A DNA stretch of 64,000 nt. It comes from Paludisphaera soli (GTDB lineage Bacteria; Planctomycetota; Planctomycetia; Isosphaerales; Isosphaeraceae). Shown piece after piece: positions 7,966 to 61,570 of this stretch (its first letter is position 1; each line of letters starts with the position of its first letter). The DNA is taken from NCBI RefSeq assembly GCF_011064595.1, contig NZ_JAALJI010000002.1, positions 62,001-126,000 on the forward strand. Direction: 5' to 3'. Position numbers and translations under genes: made by a program. The notes under the pieces are model-generated. The model searched no databases, was not told the DNA's origin, and was given only the letters and a program-made list of their open reading frames with translations.

Positions 7966-8974
7966 CCGCGTCGTCGATTCGCTGCGGTCGACGGTCCGGT
8001 CGGGACGCCTGCCGCACGCCCTGCTCTTCGTGGGCCCCGAGGGGGTCGGCAAGAAGACGTTCGCCCTGACTCTGGCCCAGGCGCTGTTGTGCGAGGAGCG
8101 GCCCGAGTCCGACCTCGAACCGTGCGGCACCTGCCCCGGCTGCGTCCAGGTCGAGGCCGGCACCCATCCCGACCTGCTGGTCGTCGGACGTCCCGAGGAC
8201 AAGCAGGAGCTGCCCATCAAGGTCATCCGGGACCTCTGCGACGAGTTCGGCCTCAAGCCGGCGCGGGGTCTTCGCAAGGTCGCCGTCGTCGACGACGTGG
8301 ACGCGATGAACGACGAGGCCGCCAACGCCTTCCTGAAGACCCTGGAGGAGCCCCCCCCGGGCGCGGTCCTGATCCTCATCGGCACGTCTCCCGAGCAGCA
8401 GCTGGAGACGATCGTCTCGCGCTGCCAGGTGGTCCGATTCGAGCCGCTGCCGCCGGAAGAGCTGGCCTCGTTGCTCCTGGAGAAGGGGGTGACGTCGGAG
8501 CCGGCCGAGGCCCTGAAGCTGGCGGCGCTGGCCGACGGCAGCGTCGGCCGCGCGGTGGGACTGGCCGACCCGGAGCTGGGCCGCTATCGCCGCGACCTGA
8601 TCGACGGCCTGTGCAGCGAGCGCGGCTTCGACCCCGGGGAGCAGGTCAAACGGCTCGACGCGTTCGCGAAGCAGGCGGGCAAGGAGTCGTCCGCACAGCG
8701 TCGTCGCGTCCGCCTGATGGTCTGGGAGCTGGCGCGTCTCTTCCGGGGCGTGCTCTGGCAGACCGCCGGCCTGGAGCCCCCCTCGCCCGACCCCGAGGAC
8801 CGTCGCGCGATCGCCAGGCTGGCCGAGCGCCTGGAGCCGGAAGACGTCTTCGTGCTGGCGGACCGCGCGATGGAGGCCGATTTCCACCTCCAGCGCAACC
8901 TCTACATGGCCCTCATCCTGGAGTCGCTCTTCCACGACCTGGCGAAGGTCATCAACCCCAGGGCGCAGTCCTGA
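7937..8974 (+). CDS. holB: DNA polymerase III delta' subunit
   Basis: A 345-residue AAA+ clamp-loader subunit. Seen in the sequence: Walker A as GPEGVGKKTF near residue 33; a Zn-binding cluster around C53 and CGTCPGC; VVDDVDAMNDEAANAFLKTL (Walker B region and helix); the SRC motif in IVSRCQVVRF; and a helical C-terminal third that would form the clamp-loader collar. It should help load the beta sliding clamp at the replication fork. The start ATG lies inside the end of tmk, so translation of the two is probably coupled. An inverted repeat at 8978-8986 and 9003-9011, just after the stop, could end the transcript, though it has no T-tract. Confidence 0.93.
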   Translation: MPWRSVRGHDRVVDSLRSTVRSGRLPHALLFVGPEGVGKKTFALTLAQALLCEERPESDLEPCGTCPGCVQVEAGTHPDLLVVGRPEDKQELPIKVIRDLCDEFGLKPARGLRKVAVVDDVDAMNDEAANAFLKTLEEPPPGAVLILIGTSPEQQLETIVSRCQVVRFEPLPPEELASLLLEKGVTSEPAEALKLAALADGSVGRAVGLADPELGRYRRDLIDGLCSERGFDPGEQVKRLDAFAKQAGKESSAQRRRVRLMVWELARLFRGVLWQTAGLEPPSPDPEDRRAIARLAERLEPEDVFVLADRAMEADFHLQRNLYMALILESLFHDLAKVINPRAQS

Positions 8975-22731: not shown

Positions 22732-22853
22732 CGACGAGACCTCCAACCATCCGCGAAAACGCAAACCGGACGCGACGGGCGCGAGCACCCGTGCGTCCGG
22801 ATGATACCGATCCGGGGGGACCGGTCAAGGAGAGTCGCGGTGTCGCGGAGGGG

Positions 22854-23474
22854 TCACTTCCCCTTGGCGGCCTCGTAGCGACGGCCCACCTCGTCCCAGT
22901 TGACGACGTTCCAGAAGGCCGTGATGTAGTCGGGGCGCCGGTTCTGATACTTCAGGTAGTAGGCGTGCTCCCAGACGTCCAGGCCGAGGACCGGCGTGGC
23001 GCCGTCGGAGATCGGGCTGTCCTGATTGGCGGTGGAGGTCACGGCGAGCTTGCCGTCCTTGCCGACCGTCAGCCAGGCCCACCCCGAGCCGAACCGGGTG
23101 GTGGCGGCCTTGTTGAAGGCCTCCTTGAACGTCGTGAAACCGCCAAGCTCCGAGGCGATCGCCTCGGCGAGCGCGCCCTTGGGCTCGCCGCCGCCGCCGG
23201 GGCCGATGATCTGCCAGAAGAACGCGTGGTTGGCGTGCCCGCCGCCGTTGTTCCGCACGGCCGTCCGGATGGCCTCCGGGATCGCGTTGAGGTCGGCGAT
23301 CAGGGCCTCGATCGGCTTGCCCTGGAGGTCCGGGTGATCCTTCAGCGCCGCGTTGAGGTTGTTGACGTACGCGGCGTGGTGCTTGTCGTGGTGGATCTCC
23401 ATCGTCTTGGCGTCGATGTGGGGCTCCAACGCGCCGAAGTCGTACGGCAGCGGGGGCACGGTGTATTCAGCCAT
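22854..23474 (-). CDS. sodA: Superoxide dismutase, Mn type
   Basis: A 206-residue enzyme that dismutates superoxide to oxygen and hydrogen peroxide. Metal ligands by alignment are His28 (in EIHHDKHH), His83 (in HANHAFFW), Asp166 and His170 (in DVWEHAYY). Gln151 in ANQDSP is the second-sphere residue typical of the manganese form; iron enzymes carry it elsewhere. No signal peptide is present, so it is cytoplasmic. ATG 23474 has AGGAG about nine bases upstream. A candidate promoter lies at 23596-23624. Fe/Mn cambialism cannot be excluded from sequence alone. Confidence 0.95.
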
Positions 23475-23595
23475 TCCAGTCGCTCCTGATTCCCTGTGTC
23501 TGTTCGGCGCGCGGACGAGGAGGTCGCCGCCGGCTGTCCCAGCCCGCGGCGACCCCCCGAGGGTCCGGGCGCGTCGCCCGTGTTCGGATCCGCAC

Positions 23596-49965: not shown

Positions 49966-51372
49966 TCACTCCGGCAGCGGCTGGCCCTTGGTCTCGGGGG
50001 CGAAGGGCAGGACCATCAGCCCCAGCAGGAACACGGCGCACATCGTGATGCCGGCGTAACGCATCGGCTCGGGGTAGTCGGCGTAGACCGACTTCGTCAG
50101 GAACCCCAGGGCCAGCGGGCCCGACGCCGCCACGAACCGGCCGACGTTGTAGCAGAACGAGATCCCCGTGCTGCGCAGGCGGGTCGGGAACAGCTCGGGG
50201 AAGTAGATCGCGTAGCCGCCGAACAGCGAGAGCTGGCAGAAGCCCATGATCGGGCCGAAGACGAAGATGTGCCAGAACTCGTCGAGGAGCCAGAAATACG
50301 TCGCGGTCGACAGCCCGGCCAGGACGAACGCGATCGCGAACGCCGGCCGGCGGCCGATCCGCTGGGTGAGCTTGGCGAACCCCTGGATGCCGAAGAAGGC
50401 GCCGGCGTTGAACATGACCAGGGCCATGCTCGCCCAGAACGTCAGCTTGCCGCCGATCTCCTTGGGCGTCAGGCCGCTGTCCGCGTAATGCTTGCGGAGG
50501 ACCGTCCGGGTCAGGTCGGCGTTGAAGACGCCGATGCCCCAGAGGCCGACGACGCCCGAGAACGCCAGGATCATGCCGACGATCGTGTTCCGCCGCCACC
50601 GAGGGTCTGTGAACAGCTCGGAGATCGAGCCCAGCTTGCGAGCCGACTCGGGGCCGCCGGCGGTCTCCTCGGCCTCCTCCTCGCGGACGGCGGCCTTCCA
50701 GCGCTCGGGCTCCTTGAGCTTGAGGAAGATGGGGATGGCCAGCAGGGCCGGGAGCAGGCCGACGAGGAACATGGTCCGCCAGGCGCTCTCGACGATCTCG
50801 GCCTCCTGCATCCTGCCGAGGCCGATCCCGATCAGGCCGGCCATCATGTTCCCCACGGCGGAGAGGGCCTGGAGCCAGCCCAGGGCGTGCGGCCGGGTGC
50901 GGTCGGACATGACCTCGGCCACAAGGGCCACACCGACGGCGAACTGGCCGCCGACCCCCAGGCCGGTCAGGAAGCGATAGGCGGCGAAGTCCCAGACCCC
51001 CACGGAAAGCGCGCTCAGGCCGGTGAAGGCCGAGTACGAGAGGATCGTGAGCATCATGGTCTTCGCCCGGCCGATCTTGTCGCCGAGGATGCCGAAGAAG
51101 ATGCCGCCCGTGGCCCAGCCGATCATGAAGATGCTGGTGGTGAGCCCGGAGTAGTAGTCGACCTGGCCGGCGGAGGCCGGGTCGCCCGGCGTGGCCCCGA
51201 TCAGCTCGGTCACGGCGGGGTTCCGCGCCAGGTTGAAGAGCTGCTGATCCATCGTGTCGAACAGCCAGCCGAGCGTTGCGACGAGGAAGACGAACCACTG
51301 GTAGCGGTCGAGGTCGCGCCACCAGGGGGCGCCGGCCGGGGCTTCCGCGGCGGGGACGTCGGGCACGTGCAT
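49966..51372 (-). CDS. Major facilitator superfamily transporter
   Basis: A 468-residue permease with twelve predicted transmembrane helices. The loop 2-3 signature reads GILGDKIGRAKTM, and helix 4 has FLTGLGVGGQFAVGVALVAE, a pattern of the sugar/metabolite:H+ symporter group. A charged central loop (LKEPERWKAAVREEEAEE) joins the two six-helix halves. The second half contains KLTQRIGRRPAFAIAF and FPELFPTRLRSTG. ATG 51372 has GAGGAAG seven bases upstream. The first cytoplasmic residues are Pro/Ala-rich. The substrate is unknown; carboxylates, sugars or aromatic acids are all possible. Confidence 0.9.
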   Translation of the reverse strand: MHVPDVPAAEAPAGAPWWRDLDRYQWFVFLVATLGWLFDTMDQQLFNLARNPAVTELIGATPGDPASAGQVDYYSGLTTSIFMIGWATGGIFFGILGDKIGRAKTMMLTILSYSAFTGLSALSVGVWDFAAYRFLTGLGVGGQFAVGVALVAEVMSDRTRPHALGWLQALSAVGNMMAGLIGIGLGRMQEAEIVESAWRTMFLVGLLPALLAIPIFLKLKEPERWKAAVREEEAEETAGGPESARKLGSISELFTDPRWRRNTIVGMILAFSGVVGLWGIGVFNADLTRTVLRKHYADSGLTPKEIGGKLTFWASMALVMFNAGAFFGIQGFAKLTQRIGRRPAFAIAFVLAGLSTATYFWLLDEFWHIFVFGPIMGFCQLSLFGGYAIYFPELFPTRLRSTGISFCYNVGRFVAASGPLALGFLTKSVYADYPEPMRYAGITMCAVFLLGLMVLPFAPETKGQPLPE

Positions 51373-51598
51373 GAATCTTCCTCGATGGATCGGAGGGGGC
51401 GGATCGGGGCCGCTCGCCGCGTCTCGGCGAGGCGGGGGAGGTCTGGCGGGCCGTCGGCGCGCGGGGACTCGCCGCCGGGTCGCGGACGCCGTCCCCCGAT
51501 CAAACCACGGACGGGACGCTGGGGCAACCGGGAGACGCCGGACGCGGCGGGGAAAAGGCCCCTCGCCGGACGCCTCGCCGGCCGCTAAGATCGTCGGC

Positions 51599-53098
51599 AT
51601 GAAACGGAAGATCGGACCGGCGCTGGCGGCCTCCGCGTTCCTCGTCGCGGGATTGATCGCGGTCGTTTACTCGGGGAAGGTCCCGCTGGGCGTGCCCGGC
51701 GAGTGGGAATGGCTGCGCGTGAAGGCCGCGCCGCCGGTGCTGGGGATGCTGCTGGCCGCCGCGGGGGTCGCGGCCTACGCGGGCTACGCGGCGCTCGGCT
51801 ATCGCGCGCTGGGCGTCCCCTCGCGGATCGGCCTGCGCGAGACGAGCTGGGTGGCCGGGCTGGTCGCCTCGGCCGTGGCCCTCCAGGTCCTGATCCCCAT
51901 GGGTGCGGCCGACGAATACGACCTGACCAAATGGGCTTACGTCCACTACTTCCACGCGTCGACCGGCTACTACCAGGTCGCCAAGGAGCAGGCGGCGGCC
52001 GACCCCTGGAAGTTCCTGGCCGACTATCCGCGCTGGATCGAGGGCCAGGACGCGCTGCACATCGGCACCCACCCGCCGGGCCTGATCGCCATGCACTGCG
52101 CGTTGATCTCGACGATGGAGCGTCGGCGCGCGGCGGCCGACTTCCTCAACGCCGCGATGCCCCCCTCGGTGACCGTGGCCTTCCGCCAGCTCGAGGCGAT
52201 CGACCGCAAGCCCCTGCCGAGGGCCGACCGGGCGGCGATCTATCTGGCGAGCCTGATCACCCTGCTGGCCTGCGCCGGGACCGTCGCCCCGCTCTACCTG
52301 TTGGCGCGGGAGTCGCTGCCGCCGCAGCTCGCCTGGGCCTCGGCGGCGCTCTGGCCGCTGGCCCCGGCGGCGAACCTGTTCCAGCCCGGGGCCGACGCGG
52401 CGTACCCCCTGCTCTCGGCGACGGCGATGGCGACGGCCGCCTGGGCGTCCCGACTGCGAGGGACGACGGGGCTCGGGACCTGGGCGTCGGCGGGGCTGGC
52501 GATCGCCTCGGGCGCGACGATGGCGTTCGGCATGATGTTCACGCTGGCCTTCCTGCCCGTCGGCCTGATCGTCGCGCTCGTCGTCCTGGCGACGCGCTCG
52601 ATCTCGGCGGCGAGGCGGATCGAGGTCGTCGCCTGGATCGGCGTCGGCTTCGTCGCGGTGGTCGCGTCCGGCTGGCTGGCGACCGGGGCCGACCCGCTCG
52701 CCGTCTGGCGATGGAACCTGCGGCACCACGCGCGGTTCTACCTGGAATATCCGCGGTCGTACTTCGCGTGGCTGGTGGCGAACCCGATCGAGCTGGCCGT
52801 GGCCGCCGGGCTGCCGGCGGTCGTCTGGTGCGCGATCGGCGCGGCCGCCGACCGCCGCTACGTCCCCCGCGCGGCCTGGTGCACGCTCGGCGTGCTCGTC
52901 GCTGTGAACCTGACGGGCCGCAACATGGGCGAGGTCGCGCGGCTCTGGATGCTCTTCCTGCCGCCTCTGTTCACGGCCCTCGGCGTCGGCCTGACCCGAC
53001 TCGGCGGCGGGCCCCGCGCGCTGTTCGCCACGGTGATCCTGGCGGGTATCCAGACGCTGGGGCTCCAGGCCCTGATCCAGGTCGTCTATCCGATCTGA
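51599..53098 (+). CDS. Polytopic membrane protein, GT-C glycosyltransferase-like
   Basis: A 499-residue membrane protein with about ten hydrophobic helices. The first large external loop has the acidic cluster AADEYDLTKWAYVHYFH and, later, IGTHPPGLIAMH. A His-Pro-Pro-Gly motif after an acidic loop is typical of GT-C enzymes that use polyprenyl-phosphate sugars, so the fold is likely shared with the two genes at 2786-6192 although sequence similarity is low. ATG 51599 directly precedes KRKIGPALAASAFLVAGLI. No ribosome binding site is obvious. It stands alone between divergent MFS and convergent sctQ-like genes. Confidence 0.7.
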   Translation: MKRKIGPALAASAFLVAGLIAVVYSGKVPLGVPGEWEWLRVKAAPPVLGMLLAAAGVAAYAGYAALGYRALGVPSRIGLRETSWVAGLVASAVALQVLIPMGAADEYDLTKWAYVHYFHASTGYYQVAKEQAAADPWKFLADYPRWIEGQDALHIGTHPPGLIAMHCALISTMERRRAAADFLNAAMPPSVTVAFRQLEAIDRKPLPRADRAAIYLASLITLLACAGTVAPLYLLARESLPPQLAWASAALWPLAPAANLFQPGADAAYPLLSATAMATAAWASRLRGTTGLGTWASAGLAIASGATMAFGMMFTLAFLPVGLIVALVVLATRSISAARRIEVVAWIGVGFVAVVASGWLATGADPLAVWRWNLRHHARFYLEYPRSYFAWLVANPIELAVAAGLPAVVWCAIGAAADRRYVPRAAWCTLGVLVAVNLTGRNMGEVARLWMLFLPPLFTALGVGLTRLGGGPRALFATVILAGIQTLGLQALIQVVYPI

Positions 53099-53127: not shown

Positions 53128-53397
53128 TCAGAGGAAGACGCTGGTCACCCGGACGCCCAGCTCGGCGTCGATGAGGACGAGGTCGCCGCGGGCGACGAGG
53201 CGGCCGTTCGAGGTGATCTCGACCGGCTCGCGGCTGTGGCGGTTGAGTTCCAGCACGTCGCCCGGCTTGAGGTCGGCGAGCCGGCTGACCGGCAGGCTCA
53301 CGCGGCCGAGTTCGACCGTCAGGGTCACGGGGACGTCGAGTGGGTCGGCGACCGGGCTCGGGCCGGGGCTCGACGATCGGGGGGAATCGGGGCTCAT
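53128..53397 (-). CDS. Internal-start product: C-terminal SPOA domain of SctQ-like protein
   Basis: An in-frame ATG at 53397 is preceded by AGGGAG eight bases upstream and would give an 89-residue product: a short Ser/Pro lead (MSPDSPRSSS) and the whole SPOA2 domain. YscQ of Yersinia and SpaO of Salmonella make such a short C-terminal form by internal initiation, and it pairs with the full-length protein. This is a prediction from the placement of the start and ribosome binding site. Confidence 0.55.
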   Translation of the reverse strand: MSPDSPRSSSPGPSPVADPLDVPVTLTVELGRVSLPVSRLADLKPGDVLELNRHSREPVEITSNGRLVARGDLVLIDAELGVRVTSVFL

Positions 53398-54324
53398 GGC
53401 GGCGTCTCCCTGGCGGCTCGGTCGTTGCTGGAGGAGGGGGCCCGCGACGCGGACCCGTCGGCCCGACGAGCCGGGCGCGGGCTCGACGAGGATGCGATAC
53501 TCCGGCCCCGCGCCCGCCGCCCGGCAGGACAGGTCGAGCGCCCCGGCGAGGTCGTCGGGGGTCCCCCCCAGGCGCGAACCGGACAGCGGCAGCACGGCGC
53601 CGACGCGCAGCTTCCGCAGGCCCAGCGGCATGGGCGAGGCGCCGACGACCGCCCGCCAGTCGGAGCCGAAGTCGACGGCCGCCGGCGGGAACGGCGGCCG
53701 GGAGTCCGGGGGCGGCGGCGAGTCGGCCCAGTACGAGGCCAGCGAGGCCGGGAGCCAGAGCCGGATCGCGCCGGCCACGCCTCCGACGCGGACCGCCCAG
53801 CGGATCGTGACGACCTCGCCCAGCCCCTCGACGTCGAACGGGCTCGGGCCCACGCGGTCGATGGAGAGGTCGGGGGCGTCGGCCTCGGCCGCGCCGCCGA
53901 ATCGGAAGGGGCTCGCCCCGGCGGCGGCGATCTCCTCCACGGCGCGGGCGACGAGATACGTCCAGACGCCCCACTCGACGGGCGTGGTCTGGAGCCGGCC
54001 GTCGGCGAAAGGGCGGTCGAAGCCCAGGAGCCGGTCGACGACGGCGTGGACGATCGGCACCTCGACGCCGATCGCCAGCCGGGTGCGGAGCCGGGGCCAT
54101 CGGAGCTGCGCCACGAGCCCCGGCCTGCCGAGCGCCGAAGCTCGCGCCTCGACCTCCGGGCGATCGAAGGCGACGTCGTCCAGCCCGCCGGACGCCCCGA
54201 GCCAGGCGAAGGCCGCGCGGGCCGCCTCGCCCTCGCGCCAGGCCTGCGCGCGTCGCTCCAGGTCCAGGGTCCGGGCGGAAAGCCGGGGGAGGCCGTCCCA
54301 GACGTCGGAGGGGTCCACGCTCAT
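53128..54324 (-). CDS. sctQ: SctQ/FliN-like type III secretion C-ring protein
   Basis: A 398-residue protein. The C-terminal 70 residues are a SPOA (FliN/SctQ) domain: DVPVTLTVELGRVSLPVSRL, LKPGDVLELNRHSREPVEI, and GRLVARGDLVLIDAELGVRV. A second, weaker SPOA-like segment, LRKLRVGAVLPLSGSRLGG, lies at about 235-290. The N-terminal 230 residues are FliM/SctQ-N-like in layout but divergent. The order (N-domain, SPOA1, Pro/Ser linker, SPOA2) is that of SctQ rather than FliN. ATG 54324 forms an ATGA overlap with the upstream gene. No other secretion or flagellar gene is visible. In T3SS, SctQ forms the cytoplasmic sorting pods that recruit substrates and the ATPase. Confidence 0.82.
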   Translation of the reverse strand: MSVDPSDVWDGLPRLSARTLDLERRAQAWREGEAARAAFAWLGASGGLDDVAFDRPEVEARASALGRPGLVAQLRWPRLRTRLAIGVEVPIVHAVVDRLLGFDRPFADGRLQTTPVEWGVWTYLVARAVEEIAAAGASPFRFGGAAEADAPDLSIDRVGPSPFDVEGLGEVVTIRWAVRVGGVAGAIRLWLPASLASYWADSPPPPDSRPPFPPAAVDFGSDWRAVVGASPMPLGLRKLRVGAVLPLSGSRLGGTPDDLAGALDLSCRAAGAGPEYRILVEPAPGSSGRRVRVAGPLLQQRPSRQGDAAMSPDSPRSSSPGPSPVADPLDVPVTLTVELGRVSLPVSRLADLKPGDVLELNRHSREPVEITSNGRLVARGDLVLIDAELGVRVTSVFL

Positions 54325-55145
54325 CGCCCCCCCCCGCCCACCGCCGGGTGGGGCGCGGCGATCCGACCCCGGCGGAAAAGCTCGTTCCAGGCGGCTTTGA
54401 GGATCAGGGCCTCGACCCGGGCGAGGGTCGGGGCCTCGCGAGCCGACCTCGGCGCGACGGCCCGGGCCCGCCGGACGGCCGGGTACGGCAGGCGTTGAAG
54501 CGCCCATCGCATGTCGAACGGCTCGCACTCGGGCAGGAGCCGGAGGGCTGTGAACAGGCCCAGCAGCGCGGAGCCCCGGCGTCCGGAGAGCCCGGAGGAC
54601 TCGACCGCCTCCACGTCCCGGAGCGCCCAGGCTCGCACCGCGTCCGAGGGCGTACCCAGGGCCTCACGCACCCAGGACGGCCCGCCGCCCTCGCGCGCGA
54701 GTGCCTGCTTGGCCCGTCCCACGGCCGACCAGAGCCGGAAGGCTTCGAGCGGCGACGCGCCGGCCAGGGCGGCGACGACCGGCGGGTGGTCGTCGCGTGG
54801 GGAGCCCCCCACGAGGCGTTCGGCCCAGAGCGAGAGCACCCAGGCCAGGACCTCGGGATGGGGAGGACGGTCCGGGGCGGCGAATCCCCCGGCGGCCCGC
54901 AAGGCCCGGCCCACGCCCGGCGGGCCGTGCGTCGCGACGGCCGCCCGGACGGCCGGCGACTCGTCCTGGATCGCCCGGGCCAGCCAGGAGGGGTGGATCC
55001 ATTCGGGGTCGGCCTTCGCCTCCTCGCGGTGCCGACGCGCGAGGCGGCCGAGGGCCCCGGCGTCGCGGTCGGGGCCGAAGGCCCGCGCGCAGGCCGCCGC
55101 GAGGTCGGCCGCGTCGCTCGTCGCGTCTCCGGATCCGACGGCCAT
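54321..55145 (-). CDS. Unknown helical protein coupled to the SctQ-like gene
   Basis: A 274-residue cytoplasmic protein with no recognised family. It starts at ATG 55145 with GAGG seven bases ahead; ATG 55166 would overlap the preceding gene. It is almost entirely helical, Ala/Arg/Leu-rich, with HEAT-like stretches (LARAIQDESPAVRAAVATHG, VLAWVLSLWAERLVG, ALEREG-like helices near 160) and Trp residues spaced through helices. Its stop overlaps the sctQ start as ATGA, so the two are made together. In T3SS clusters the gene before sctQ often encodes SctL, SctK or an accessory of the sorting platform; one of these roles is an inference from position only. Confidence 0.65.
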   Translation of the reverse strand: MAVGSGDATSDAADLAAACARAFGPDRDAGALGRLARRHREEAKADPEWIHPSWLARAIQDESPAVRAAVATHGPPGVGRALRAAGGFAAPDRPPHPEVLAWVLSLWAERLVGGSPRDDHPPVVAALAGASPLEAFRLWSAVGRAKQALAREGGGPSWVREALGTPSDAVRAWALRDVEAVESSGLSGRRGSALLGLFTALRLLPECEPFDMRWALQRLPYPAVRRARAVAPRSAREAPTLARVEALILKAAWNELFRRGRIAAPHPAVGGGGR

Positions 55146-55153
55146 CGACGCCC

Positions 55154-55912
55154 TCACGCCCAGCACTTCATGAGGGTTAATCGCCGGCCGCCGCGGTCCA
55201 CGGAGACCTCGTCGAAGGTGGAGAGGCCGGCGGCGAACGGGTCGTCGGCGGCCTCCGAGAGCCCTTCGAACCAGTCGATCCGGTCGCGGAATTCGAGGGT
55301 GAGGCGGTCGGGCGCCAGCTCGAAGTGGAGCGAGGCCGCCCCCCCCTCGGGGTGCTCGCGCCCACGGCGGGCGATCCGCTCCTCGGCCAGGTCGACGAGG
55401 GCGTTGATCCGGCCGGCGGCCTGCTCGTCGAGCGGGGTTCGGCCGAGGACCAGGCTGCGGAGCCTGGCCAGGTCGCGGAGCGGCGAATCGTCGGCGGGCT
55501 CGTCGAACCGGATCGCGCCCTTGACCCGCTCGCGTGAGGCCTGCTCGCGGAGGGCCTCGGCTCGCTCCAGAGCCTCGAAGATCCGCTCGGGGGCGTAGGG
55601 CTTGGAGATGAACTCGTCGGCCCCGGCGCGGAAGCTGTCGATCCGGTTGCGCTGGGCGACCCGGGCGGAGACGATGACGAGCGGCACCAGGCAGGTCGCC
55701 TTGGCGGACTTCACGGCGCGGCAGACCTCGTAGCCGTCGACGTCCGGGAGCATCAGGTCGAGGAAGAGGACGTCGGGGACCTGGCGTCCGAGCTGTTCCA
55801 TCGCCTCGCCGCCGGTGAAGGCCGGGGTCGAACGGTAGCCGCGAAGCTTGATCAGCATCCCCAAGAGCTTGTTGGCTTCCGGTTCGTCTTCGACGATGAG
55901 CGCTGTGGGCAT
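55154..55912 (-). CDS. Response regulator with degenerate GHKL/RsbW-like output domain
   Basis: A 252-residue protein. Residues 1-120 are a receiver: ALIVEDEPEANKLLG, phospho-Asp52 in FLDLMLPDVDG, the Ser of IVSARV and the Lys of ISKPYAPE. Residues about 165-252 resemble a GHKL (anti-sigma kinase, RsbW-type) ATPase: SLHFELAPDRLTLEFRDR, then GLSTFDEVSVDRGGRRLTL. However, the N-box Asn and the glycines of G1 are missing, so it should not hydrolyse ATP. It may bind a partner protein when phosphorylated. ATG 55912 starts at MPTALIVEDE. It is eight bases from the next gene and so co-transcribed with the unknown protein and sctQ. Confidence 0.85.
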   Translation of the reverse strand: MPTALIVEDEPEANKLLGMLIKLRGYRSTPAFTGGEAMEQLGRQVPDVLFLDLMLPDVDGYEVCRAVKSAKATCLVPLVIVSARVAQRNRIDSFRAGADEFISKPYAPERIFEALERAEALREQASRERVKGAIRFDEPADDSPLRDLARLRSLVLGRTPLDEQAAGRINALVDLAEERIARRGREHPEGGAASLHFELAPDRLTLEFRDRIDWFEGLSEAADDPFAAGLSTFDEVSVDRGGRRLTLMKCWA

Positions 55913-55977
55913 CGGGTTCTCGCGAAACGATGGGCCGGGCCGGGAGAGGTCCGAGGTCGGGGGGGGCGTCCGGGGCC

Positions 55978-57216
55978 TCAAGGGGGCGGCGGCTCGCCGT
56001 CGCGGCCGACGGCGACGGGGGCCACGGCGGGGCCGACGACCGCGGACTCGGCGCGGCGAGGCAGGCGGACGGTCATGCGGGTGCCGCCCCCGTCCAGCCG
56101 TTCGGGCGCGACCGATCCGCCGTGCATCTCGACGAACTGCTTGGCGATGCTCAGGCCGAGCCCCAGGCCCCGCTTCTGGAAGCCGAACTCGCCGGACGAG
56201 TGGCAGCTGGGGTCGAGCTGGGTGAAGAAGGGCTCGAACAGGTGTCGGAACGCCTCGGGGTCGATGCCGACGCCGCGGTCCTCCACCTCGACGACGGTCT
56301 CGTCCGGGCCGTCGAGCCGGGCGGTCAGCGCGACGTCGCCGCGGTCGGGGGTGAACTTGATGGCGTTCGTCATGAGGTTGACGAGGGCCGCGGCCACCTT
56401 GTCCGCGTCGATCTCGAACGGGCCCAGGTCGGGCGCGACCTCCAGCCGCAGGTGGAGGCCCCGGGCGTGGAGGAACGGGCGGACCTGATCGACGACGCCC
56501 TGGATCAGGGTCCCCAGGTCGACGGGGCGTCGTTCCAGGGTGCGGCGGAAGTCCTCGGCCCGGAGCAGCGTCAGCATGTTGGTGACCAGCCGGGCGAGCT
56601 GGCGGCCGCTGGCGGTGATCTGGCGGAGGATCTCGGATTCCTCGTCCGGGCGGGCGCCGGGCGAGAGCCGGAGCAGCTCGGCCAGCCCCAGGACGAGGGT
56701 GATCGGGGTGTTGAACTCGTGGCTGGCGACCTCGATGAAGGCCGTCTTGAGGCGGTCGGCGCGGGCCAGGTCCTCGTTGGCCTCGACGAGCCGCGCGTTG
56801 GCCTCCTGCAGCTCGGAGATCAGGGCCTTGCGCTCGGCCAGGAGGTCGTACTTCTCGGCGGCCTGGGCGATGACCCCCTCGAGCTCGACGGCGTCCCAGG
56901 GCTTGAGGATGTAGCGGAAGATGTGGCCTTCGTTGACCGCGTTGATCACGGCCTGGATGTCGGCGTAGCCGGTGAAGAGCATCCGGATGGCGTCGGGCTG
57001 CATCCGCCGGGCCTCGGCCAGCAGGGCGTCGCCGGACATGCCGGGCATCCGCTGGTCGGAGAGGAGGAGGTGGACCTCGTTCTCCTTCAGCAGCTCGAGC
57101 GCGGCGCGGGCGTTGGGGGCGGTGAGCACGCGATAGGCGCGGTGGAACTGGTGCCGCAGGCTTTCCAGCACGTCCACCTCGTCGTCGACGATCAAGAGGG
57201 TATGCCGCCGCTTCAT
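55978..57216 (-). CDS. Receiver-histidine kinase hybrid
   Basis: A 412-residue soluble protein: an N-terminal receiver (phospho-Asp54 in LLSDQRMPGM, with MLFTGYADIQAVI), a coiled-coil (about 120-155), a HisKA dimerisation helix with phospho-His166 in ASHEFNTPIT, and a HATPase with N-box LVNLMTNAIKFTP, G1 VEDRGVGIDPEA and G2 GLGLGLSIAKQFVEMHGG. There is no transmembrane segment, so the input is presumably phosphorylation of the receiver or a bound partner. ATG 57216 has GGAG eight bases upstream. It lies 65 bases upstream of the RsbW-like response regulator gene, its likely target. Confidence 0.92.
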   Translation of the reverse strand: MKRRHTLLIVDDEVDVLESLRHQFHRAYRVLTAPNARAALELLKENEVHLLLSDQRMPGMSGDALLAEARRMQPDAIRMLFTGYADIQAVINAVNEGHIFRYILKPWDAVELEGVIAQAAEKYDLLAERKALISELQEANARLVEANEDLARADRLKTAFIEVASHEFNTPITLVLGLAELLRLSPGARPDEESEILRQITASGRQLARLVTNMLTLLRAEDFRRTLERRPVDLGTLIQGVVDQVRPFLHARGLHLRLEVAPDLGPFEIDADKVAAALVNLMTNAIKFTPDRGDVALTARLDGPDETVVEVEDRGVGIDPEAFRHLFEPFFTQLDPSCHSSGEFGFQKRGLGLGLSIAKQFVEMHGGSVAPERLDGGGTRMTVRLPRRAESAVVGPAVAPVAVGRDGEPPPP

Positions 57217-57379
57217 CCGCTTCGCTCCGCCCGCGGTCGGAGGGTGGGGATCTGGCCCGTCCCGTCTCGACTTCACCCCGAGGCTCCCCGAACGGTCGCG
57301 CCGGGACCTCCCTGGTCCATCATACAGGTTCGCCGTCCGAATGCAGTCCCCGATATCCGTCCCGGCCGGGAAAGTGGGG

Positions 57380-57895
57380 TCAGGCCCCGAGGGGTCCGGC
57401 GGCGGGGACGTCGCGGTCCTTCAGCCGGTCCACCAGCGATTCCAGGCAGGAGACCCGCCCCTTGAGGCCGTCGATCTCGTTCAGGAGCAGGTCGCGCTCG
57501 CGGGCCGATTGCTCCAGGCGGTCGTACTCGGCGGCGGCCTGGCGGACGGCCTCCAGCAACTCCTCCGGCTGCCAGGGCTTGCGGATGAACTGGAAGACGT
57601 GGCCCTGGTTGATCGCCGCGATCACCGACTCCAGGTCGGCGAAGCCGGTGAAGAGCATCCGGACCGCTTGCGGATAGCGGGCCTTGAGCCGCGTGAGCAG
57701 CTCAACCCCGGTGATCTGGGGCATCCGCTGGTCCGACATCACGATGTGGACCTCCTCCTCCTGCATCAGCCGGTAGCCCTCGTCGGCGCTGTGCGCCTTG
57801 AGCACGCGGAACTCGCGACGCAGCAGGTCGTGCACGGAGTCGCACACGTTGGGCTCGTCGTCGACGATCAGGAGACAGTGCTTGCTCTTGGACAT
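57380..57895 (-). CDS. Response regulator, receiver plus coiled coil
   Basis: A 171-residue protein: a receiver (residues 5-120) with phospho-Asp55 in VMSDQRMPQIT, MLFTGFADLESVIAAINQG and the Lys of IRKPWQPEEL, then a short helical tail (LLNEIDGLKGRVSCLESLVD) that could dimerise. There is no DNA-binding or enzymatic output domain. The receiver is a close paralogue of that in the hybrid kinase at 55978-57216 (SDQRMP, MLFTG and KPW blocks shared). ATG 57895 begins at MSKSKHCLLIVDDE. The PAS sensor kinase gene ends 93 bases upstream and is its probable donor. Confidence 0.9.
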   Translation of the reverse strand: MSKSKHCLLIVDDEPNVCDSVHDLLRREFRVLKAHSADEGYRLMQEEEVHIVMSDQRMPQITGVELLTRLKARYPQAVRMLFTGFADLESVIAAINQGHVFQFIRKPWQPEELLEAVRQAAAEYDRLEQSARERDLLLNEIDGLKGRVSCLESLVDRLKDRDVPAAGPLGA

Positions 57896-57988: not shown

Positions 57989-60091
<2,103 letters not shown>

Positions 60092-60331: not shown

Positions 60332-60697
60332 ATGCCCGTCTTCACGCATCACGTGTTCATCTGCGGCAACGTCCGCGAGCCCGGGCACAAGCGGGGATGC
60401 TGCGACCCCGAGGGCCGGCAGGCGCTCAAGGACGCCTTCAAGGTCGCGCTAAAGAAGGCGGGCCTCGGGCCGCTCGCGCGGGCCAACCACGCCGGCTGCC
60501 TCGATCAGTGCGAGCACGGGCCGGTCGTCGTCGTCTATCCGCTCGGCGTCTGGTACGGGAACGTGACGGCCGCCGACGTCCCCCGCATCGTGGAGAAGAC
60601 GATCCTCGGCGGGGAGATCCTGGGCGACCTCCAGATCGCCGACGAGTGCCTCAACAATCCCAGGTGTCCACATCGAGCCGGGCCGACCGGGGGGTGA
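60332..60697 (+). CDS. Thioredoxin-like [2Fe-2S] ferredoxin
   Basis: A 121-residue protein resembling Shethna-type and NuoE-like thioredoxin-fold ferredoxins. The four likely cluster cysteines are Cys11 (HVFICGN), Cys23 or Cys24 (KRGCCDPEG), and the two of GCLDQCEHGP. VVVVYPLGVWYGNVTAAD and the C-terminal helices complete the fold. A further cysteine pair near the end (CLNNPRC) is unexplained. It should act as a cytoplasmic electron carrier; the partner is not known. ATG 60332 is the first codon of the frame. Its stop lies four bases before panC, so the two are co-transcribed. Confidence 0.88.
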   Translation: MPVFTHHVFICGNVREPGHKRGCCDPEGRQALKDAFKVALKKAGLGPLARANHAGCLDQCEHGPVVVVYPLGVWYGNVTAADVPRIVEKTILGGEILGDLQIADECLNNPRCPHRAGPTGG

Positions 60698-60701
60698 TCC
60701 G

Positions 60702-61559
60702 ATGCAGGTGGCGACCACGATCCCGTCGGCGCGCCAGGCGGTCGAGCAGGCCCGCGCCGAGGGCCGTCGGATCGGCCTGGTGCCGACGATGGGGGCCCTG
60801 CACGCCGGGCACCTCGCCCTGGTGGAGGAGTGCCGGCGGCTGGCCGACTACGCGGCCGTCTCGATCTTCGTGAACCCGGCCCAGTTCGGCCCCGGCGAGG
60901 ATTACGACCGCTACCCCCGGGTGCTGGAGGACGACCTCCGGATGTGCGAGGCCGCCGGCGTCGACCTGGTCTTCAAGCCCTCGGCCGACGAGATGTACCC
61001 CCGGGGCGTCCCGGACGCCACGTTCGTCGAGGTCCCGGGGCTGTCGCACGTCTTCGAAGGCGTGATCCGGCCGACCCACTTCCGCGGCGTGGCGACCGTC
61101 GTGCTGGGCCTCTTCGAGATCGTCCGGCCGGACGTGGCGGTCTTCGGCCAGAAGGATTATCAGCAGCAAGCCCTGCTCCGCCGGATGGTGGAGGACCTGC
61201 ACGTCCCGGTCGAGATCGTCGTCCACCCGATCGTCCGCGAGCCCGACGGCCTGGCGATGAGCAGCCGCAACATCTACCTGGACCCCGACCAGCGCCGGGG
61301 CTCGCTGGCCCTGCGGCGGGCCCTGGAGGCCGCCGTCGCGGCCGTCGCCGCCGGGGAGTCGGACGCGGACCGGGTTCGACAGATCCTGCGTTCCCCGATA
61401 GAATCCGAGGGGGCGGCGGTCCTCGATTACGCCGAGGTCGTCGACGCCCTTTCCCTGGAAAAGCTCGGACGGATCGAGCCGGGGCGGACCGCCGTCGCCC
61501 TGGTGGCGGCCCGGTTCGGCAAGACCCGGCTGATCGACAACGCCCGGCTGACGGAGTGA
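60702..61559 (+). CDS. panC: Pantothenate synthetase
   Basis: A 285-residue enzyme joining pantoate and beta-alanine with ATP to form pantothenate, the precursor of coenzyme A. The nucleotide-binding HIGH-like motif is in PTMGALHAGHLAL, and the pantoate/ATP contacts in FVNPAQFGPGEDYDRYPR and FGQKDYQQQ. The KMSKS-like loop is MSSRN. The start ATG 60702 has GGGGGG a few bases upstream. It is followed after 11 bases by panD, whose product supplies beta-alanine, so the two consecutive steps of vitamin B5 synthesis are coded together. Confidence 0.97.
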   Translation: MQVATTIPSARQAVEQARAEGRRIGLVPTMGALHAGHLALVEECRRLADYAAVSIFVNPAQFGPGEDYDRYPRVLEDDLRMCEAAGVDLVFKPSADEMYPRGVPDATFVEVPGLSHVFEGVIRPTHFRGVATVVLGLFEIVRPDVAVFGQKDYQQQALLRRMVEDLHVPVEIVVHPIVREPDGLAMSSRNIYLDPDQRRGSLALRRALEAAVAAVAAGESDADRVRQILRSPIESEGAAVLDYAEVVDALSLEKLGRIEPGRTAVALVAARFGKTRLIDNARLTE

Positions 61560-61570
61560 GGCGACCACGC

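Follow-up and report, generated by a model that had tools for sequence, protein, structure and literature searches.

A predicted FliM-FliN fusion with a conserved internal start signal in Isosphaeraceae that encode a flagellar-type export gate

Introduction

The closest described counterparts of the gene considered here are the SctQ proteins of injectisomes and the C-ring proteins of the flagellum. SctQ proteins (YscQ, SpaO, Spa33, SsaQ and HrcQ) carry two SPOA domains, SPOA1 and SPOA2, in one chain, and have an internal start before SPOA2 that yields a FliN-like product. For YscQ and SpaO, the C-terminal form is made by internal initiation and assembles with the full-length protein; for Spa33, a 1:2 ratio of full-length to short form is reported. 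A two-product C-ring gene has thus already been described for injectisomes. In the flagellar C-ring, three folded domains, FliM middle, FliM SPOA and FliN SPOA, are divided between FliM and FliN; FliM has an N-terminal CheY-binding peptide, and CheY acts on FliM. FliY joins a CheC-like fold to a FliN-type SPOA domain and has one SPOA. Alternative translation of T. maritima fliY is hinted at in the accessible part of the account by McDowell et al. (PMC4832279).

Flagellar-type export genes also occur without a flagellum. According to the accessible parts of the respective accounts, non-flagellated Lysobacter enzymogenes OH11 keeps a working flagellar-type export system (PMC7277350), and Chlamydia pneumoniae keeps FliI, FlhA and FliF (PMC2830194); both keep FliI, and those parts make no mention of a fused C-ring gene with an internal start. 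In the accessible text of Ivanova et al., genes for flagellar assembly have a 'poor representation' in four Isosphaeraceae, consistent with the absence of motile swarmers from all described members (PMC5352709). In the literature searched, which covers few subscription journals and includes the accessible parts of PMC9380563 and PMC12248157, neither the gene nor the fused design is described for Isosphaeraceae.

Here, we analyse a locus of Paludisphaera soli (genome 99.97% complete) that lies in a 64,000-nt stretch of contig NZ_JAALJI010000002.1, hereafter the window. An initial annotation had read one gene of the window as an orphan SctQ-like C-ring protein with an internal start. Our analysis confirms the underlying observation and adds weight to the interpretation of two products; the gene is not an orphan.

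Results

Architecture of the fused protein

The C-ring gene extends on the minus strand from an ATG at 54324 to a stop at 53128 and encodes 398 residues. SPOA2 (residues 330–396; 53137–53337, minus strand) is matched in Pfam by PF01052 with an E-value of 1.3e-22 and a score of 79.9 bits (cut-off 23.8), and this is the one PF01052 match over cut-off in the genome. SPOA1 (about residues 219–300; 53425–53670, minus strand) is not detected by Pfam; it is covered by the NCBIfam SctQ model TIGR02551, which ranks first for the protein and matches residues 145–395 with an E-value of 8.5e-26, and by an AlphaFold model superposed on 4yxc/4yxb. Profile searches with the SPOA and SctQ families, together with the model, bear out the claim that SPOA1 and SPOA2 lie in one protein. 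Assignment to SctQ itself is doubtful: TIGR02551 gives 91.6 bits where 100.8 are needed to pass its cut-off, and the NCBIfam FliN model, which ranks second (E 6.1e-20), is likewise under its cut-off. Both models are matched at E ≤ 1 by all 30 aligned homologs.

The AlphaFold model of the C-ring protein, built from 20 sequences (mean pLDDT 78.8, pTM 0.62), resembles known structures in two parts. Specifically, residues 15–206 (53707–54282, minus strand) are predicted to form a FliM middle (CheC-like) domain that superposes on the FliM middle domain 4gc8_A (Z 15.8, rmsd 3.0, 175 aligned, 10% identity), and residues 219–398 superpose on the FliM(SPOA)::FliN fusion 4yxc_B (Z 15.0, rmsd 2.4, 140 aligned, 27% identity). 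On this two-part match, the protein would in effect be FliM joined to FliN, with a variable linker between SPOA1 and SPOA2. The FliM family PF02154 is under cut-off in the window protein (12.9 bits versus 27) and is found at E ≤ 1 in 20 of the 30 homologs, with a best value of 0.0001. Among solved structures, the sequence profile of the protein finds Thermotoga FliN 1o6a best (E 2.3e-19) and YscQ-C 3uep more weakly (E 3.5e-9); a match to rhizobial SctQ, with a probability of 96.9, is confined to the SPOA2 half.

The protein thus contains the same three folded domains as flagellar FliM and FliN, in the same order, but in one fused gene, and the genome has no further SPOA gene that passes the cut-off. 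It shares with FliY the joining of a CheC-like fold to a FliN-type SPOA, and differs from it in having two SPOA domains. Twenty-seven columns are invariant across 30 homologs, and none of the 36 family matches is interrupted by a stop. The named relatives belong to the Isosphaeraceae and include Singulisphaera acidiphila DSM 18658 and Aquisphaera insulae. With six candidates scored per genome, the C-ring alignment was matched in 206 of 297 genomes of the class; among the matches listed, those outside the family start at model position 230 or later, i.e. at the SPOA end. A separate SPOA domain, 48% identical to SPOA2, was seen at 8001–8201 of locus L090 on a contig labelled as a Euryarchaeota metagenome-assembled genome, and may come from a misbinned bacterial contig.

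An in-frame start ahead of SPOA2

The initial annotation had placed an internal start in the linker, and every element of it is as claimed: an ATG at 53397, a Shine-Dalgarno sequence AGGGAG at 53411–53406 on the minus strand, a spacing of 8, and a predicted FliN-like product of 89 residues (53128–53397, minus strand). The survey of this start in the family comprised 34 of the 36 homologs, namely those with a complete 3′ end; in the two excluded, from genomes G025 and G044, the match is in the first halves only. Of the 34, 32 retain an in-frame start codon (ATG, GTG or TTG) within the linker, one candidate having been picked by eye per homolog where the linker offered several. The start codons, counted among 29 homologs, are 21 ATG, 5 GTG and 3 TTG, with predicted products of 77–111 residues. 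Two homologs (L029 and L165) lack a convincing internal start, and in six others (L008, L014, L031, L166, L167 and L168) the Shine-Dalgarno energy is weaker than −5.

The combination of start codon and strong Shine-Dalgarno sequence exceeds the expectation from codon usage. In particular, a start with a Shine-Dalgarno energy of −5 or below is present in a 33-codon linker window in 25 of 30 homologs, versus a mean of 5.5 and a maximum of 11 in 300 codon shuffles; counting ATG alone, the corresponding values are 18 observed versus a mean of 3.4 and a maximum of 8. In-frame ATG codons are about three times denser in the linker (23 of 990 codons) than elsewhere in the gene (76 of 10749). Control windows slid upstream score between 6 and 20, the highest, 20 of 30, being reached at −80 codons, probably where conserved Gly/Val codons mimic the signal; the Shine-Dalgarno count alone is therefore not specific to the linker.

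A stronger argument than the Shine-Dalgarno count is the positional interchange of start codons. In nine homologs (L012, L013 and L021–L027), aligned by similar flanks, one column is divided equally among ATG, GTG and TTG, with three homologs each, so that the residue changes among M, V and L. In the C-ring homolog genes, Val is encoded by GTG in 24% of cases and Leu by TTG in 8%. No P value is attached to this column because it was picked after the data were seen.

In all five other genomes of the same genus (L004–L008), the ATG and a purine-rich site are kept, with energies of −6.5, −7.4, −6.6, −6.4 and −4.3, the last and weakest being that of L008. The points on which the initial annotation had staked its reading, SPOA similarity and an initiation signal in close relatives, are thus both present, and the retention of the start codon in nearly all homologs strengthens, at the level of sequence, the case for a two-product design.

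Gene neighbourhood

The start of the C-ring gene overlaps by ATGA a partner gene directly upstream (54321–55166, minus strand; 281 residues). The two genes are adjacent in 29 of the 33 family genomes that have both, and the four non-adjacent cases all belong to one genus and have the genes on separate contigs. A predicted model of the partner (mean pLDDT 84.0, pTM 0.77) is all helix. By VIA its best match is PscK, the SctK of P. aeruginosa (6uie_B; Z 8.8, rmsd 4.5, 163 aligned, 14% identity; for helical folds a Z below about 13 can arise by chance), followed by FliG (Z 5.2). Foldseek places FliG first, at E 0.11, and PscK 18th, with no better E-value.

At the sequence level there is little to identify the partner as SctK or FliG: by hhalign, comparison with SctK (seven NolU-type proteins) gave a probability of 0.2, and comparison with the genome's own FliG gave no significant match. 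The partner protein of the window has weak HEAT matches alone in Pfam (E 0.11 and 0.29), no NCBIfam match, and one chance-level match to PDB sequences (E 0.8); FliG_C is matched in 1 of 18 partner family members (E 0.0039). We treat a SctK/FliG-fold adaptor as a lead given by the predicted structure. The initial statement that the window has no other secretion or flagellar gene would then have overlooked this predicted SctK/FliG-like partner. Of the other export genes, a tblastn search of the window with the 12 proteins of the export-cluster stretch described below found none better than E 0.004, this being FliO at 22827–23060; the overlapping open reading frame, 22791–23489, has no Pfam match. 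In the same search, the FliA query matched a sigma-70 gene of the window (E 4e-14).

Upstream of the partner, the same minus-strand gene run continues with genes for a response regulator, RR2 (receiver plus a weak HATPase_c_2-like C-terminus; 55154–55981), a receiver-histidine kinase hybrid (55978–57276) and a single-receiver response regulator, RR1 (57380–57895), and is headed by a PAS-rich histidine kinase (57989–60091). The full set of kinase, RR1, hybrid, RR2, partner and C-ring genes is found at 8 of 23 named Isosphaeraceae loci (L071, L072, L077–L081 and L087), and the set lacking just the kinase at three more (L067, L073 and L074). At the other 12 loci the regulator set was not found beside the C-ring gene, in some of these owing to a nearby contig end; in seven (L070, L075, L082, L083, L084, L088 and L089), kilobases of sequence lie upstream and do not include the set.

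Export genes in the genome and in the family

On another contig (C132) of the same genome lies a cluster of flagellar-type export genes. It contains FlhA (PF00771, E 8.9e-232), the sole FHIPEP match in the genome, and beside it FliF (PF01514, E 2.8e-17), FliG (FliG_C, E 3.3e-20), FliO, FliP, FliQ, FliR, FlhB, FlhF and a FliA/WhiG sigma factor. The gate genes FlhA, FlhB, FliP, FliQ and FliR are all present. FlhF and the sigma factor are over their NCBIfam cut-offs; the five gate proteins are below theirs, with FlhA, FliP and FlhB over those of Pfam, and FliF barely touches the NCBIfam fliF model (E 0.013). Flagellar models score higher than injectisome models for FlhA (755 versus 499 for SctV), FliP (190 versus 161 for SctR, with 177 for the broad EscR/YscR/HrcR model), FliQ (74 versus 42) and FliR (134 versus 99 for SctT), and the two tie for FlhB. 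The reading of the C-ring gene as an orphan at the genome level is rejected by this cluster; in addition, the partner with its SctK/FliG-like predicted fold is directly upstream. A search of the whole genome, as the initial annotation had proposed, thus recovered FliG and export genes, of flagellar type, and no SctN over cut-off. The gene order of the cluster is the same in two (G037 and G040) of four other genomes viewed; the stretch around FlhA consists of FlhA, FlhF and FliA only in G012 and of FlhA and FlhF only in G033, where the contig is 12 kb long.

The inventory of the family comprised 45 Isosphaeraceae genomes, 26 of which ('good') have a completeness of 90% or more and a contamination of 5% or less. 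FlhA is present in 42 of the 45 and FliP in 39, and both in all 26 good genomes. The C-ring protein, with its own sequence as query, is found in 36 (21 of the good genomes), and the partner gene in 34 (20 of the good genomes). Exactly one SPOA gene is present in 34 of the 45 genomes, and none has two at E ≤ 1e-4; thus, no separate FliM and FliN pair is seen. Flagellin and the MotB plug are found in none of the 45 genomes, and rod/hook proteins in one, G006 (85% complete, 5% contaminated), which is not the window's genome. All of these families were detected in the positive controls E. coli, B. subtilis, Caulobacter and Thermotoga. The match in G006 (L036, L158), the sole rod/hook-type PF06429 match, is on a 6.2-kb contig, C92, in a genome without an FlhA match, and is possibly foreign.

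The FliI/SctN model TIGR01026 is over cut-off in 0 of the 45 genomes, and in 4 of 14 control genomes. Matches below the cut-off, at E ≤ 1e-60, occur in 42 of the 45, with two apiece in nine genomes. Inspection covered the one in the window's genome, which has PF00006, a P-loop GGAGLGKT, taken to be of the F1-beta type, and no significant T3SS_ATPase_C match (E 0.078); on these grounds it was rejected as FliI.

In five of the 26 good genomes (G003, G004, G005, G012 and G034), FlhA and FliP are present and there is no SPOA gene, so the gate may not need the C-ring protein. The view of the cluster in G012 at first suggested that the C-ring gene had been lost together with the gate; this was rejected, since FliP is located elsewhere in G012 and is present in all good genomes. 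Both G004 and G012, which lack a SPOA gene, encode FliP at a distance from FlhA, and their full-length FlhA proteins score lowest.

Discussion

The family is one of immobile bacteria that retain a flagellar-type export gate, with no filament or motor genes seen. Its C-ring gene has in common with SctQ the presence of SPOA1 and SPOA2 in one chain and, as a conserved signal, an internal start before SPOA2. The double-SPOA design of the SctQ-like reading therefore stands, and the assignment to SctQ becomes doubtful: the window protein is under the curated score, has a FliM middle-type domain in its model, has counterparts with TTG internal starts in three homologs, and comes from a genome with mostly flagellar-type export genes together with FliG, FliO and FlhF and no SctN over cut-off. 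The setting differs from that of the flagellar C-ring in lacking flagellin, MotB and, except in one genome, rod/hook genes. Lysobacter enzymogenes OH11 and Chlamydia pneumoniae resemble the family in having export genes without a flagellum, but keep FliI. We do not class the protein as SctQ; in our reading it plays a SctQ-like part in a flagellar-type export system that has been stripped down.

We consider it probable that the gene encodes a natural FliM-FliN fusion, probably translated twice, which serves as the C-ring or sorting-platform unit of a stripped flagellar-type export gate. From the architecture, the conserved internal start signal, the gene neighbourhood and the gene inventory, all of which can be read from sequence, we infer that both products are made, that they assemble, that they are linked to the gate, and that regulators feed into it. 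Specifically, the gene would probably be translated at full length and again, from the internal start, as a FliN-like SPOA2 protein, and the two products would probably assemble into the C-ring or sorting-platform unit in the manner of Spa33 and YscQ. The SctK/FliG-fold partner would tie this unit to a FliF/FliG base, and the unit would belong to the gate (FliFGOPQR, FlhBA, FlhF and the FliA-type sigma factor) encoded elsewhere in the genome. The gate would export substrates without FliI, driven by proton motive force. With no filament, no stator, no recognisable FliI, and rod/hook genes in one genome only, it would presumably function in secretion or signalling. Its activity may be controlled by the histidine kinase and response regulators encoded next to the C-ring gene, possibly through action of the receivers on the ring, comparable to that of CheY on FliM.

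A true SctQ, belonging to a non-flagellar type III secretion system of the injectisome lineage whose other genes are scattered, would fit the first rank of TIGR02551 and its match to all 30 homologs scanned, the choice of PscK as best VIA structural match of the partner, and the rhizobial SctQ match of the SPOA2 half. We regard this as unlikely in view of the sub-cut-off score, the preference of FlhA, FliP and FliR for flagellar models (FlhB tying) with FliO, FliG and FlhF alongside, the absence of FliI/SctN over cut-off from 45 genomes, and the position of SPOA2 nearer to FliN structures than to YscQ-C. In addition, the accessible part of Abby and Rocha's account lists NF-T3SS for no groups other than Chlamydiae, Proteobacteria and Verrucomicrobia (PMC3459982). 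A decaying flagellar remnant without present function is very improbable: all family matches are free of internal stops, FlhA and FliP are in every good genome, 27 columns are invariant, and the start signal is conserved while the linker is not. Such a remnant would agree with the failure to find filament, stator, over-cut-off FliI and (except in one genome) rod/hook genes, with the five good genomes that have no SPOA gene, and with the few flagellar genes and lack of described motile swarmers in the accessible text on four Isosphaeraceae (PMC5352709).

The full-length protein could also be real and the internal start unused, a by-product of GC-rich codons. The control window at −80 codons, which also reaches 20 of 30, points that way, as do the two homologs without a convincing start and the six with a weaker Shine-Dalgarno sequence. 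Nevertheless, the observed count is more than twice the maximum of the shuffles, ATG is enriched in the linker, and ATG, GTG and TTG interchange at one aligned column, and we hold disuse of the start to be distinctly improbable.

If the probable reading, a twice-translated FliM-FliN fusion, holds, the occurrence of a two-product design in a family with flagellar-type export genes suggests that the design arose twice or is older than SctQ. The family would offer a natural system for studying the role of a C-ring in the absence of anything to turn and of a recognisable FliI-type ATPase for docking, and would help to gauge how strongly type III export relies on the ATPase and on the sorting platform. 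Tentatively, and with considerable doubt as to the proposal as a whole, the Isosphaeraceae might have a new type III gate that is ATPase-free and signal-gated, in which a two-product C-ring acts with a SctK/FliG-like adaptor, a PAS kinase and receivers take the place of chemotaxis, and the fusion is independent of SctQ.

Other features of the neighbourhood are recorded here as observations in their own right. The C-terminal half of RR2 matches HATPase_c_2 at E 0.035 and could be anti-sigma-like; the export cluster includes a FliA/WhiG sigma gene. A 305-residue protein without a Pfam match (60651–61568) is kept upstream of the operon in several relatives. On the other side, a divergent gene without a Pfam match (51371–53098) and an MFS/sugar transporter gene (49966–51600) are retained in many relatives, again downstream of the C-ring gene.
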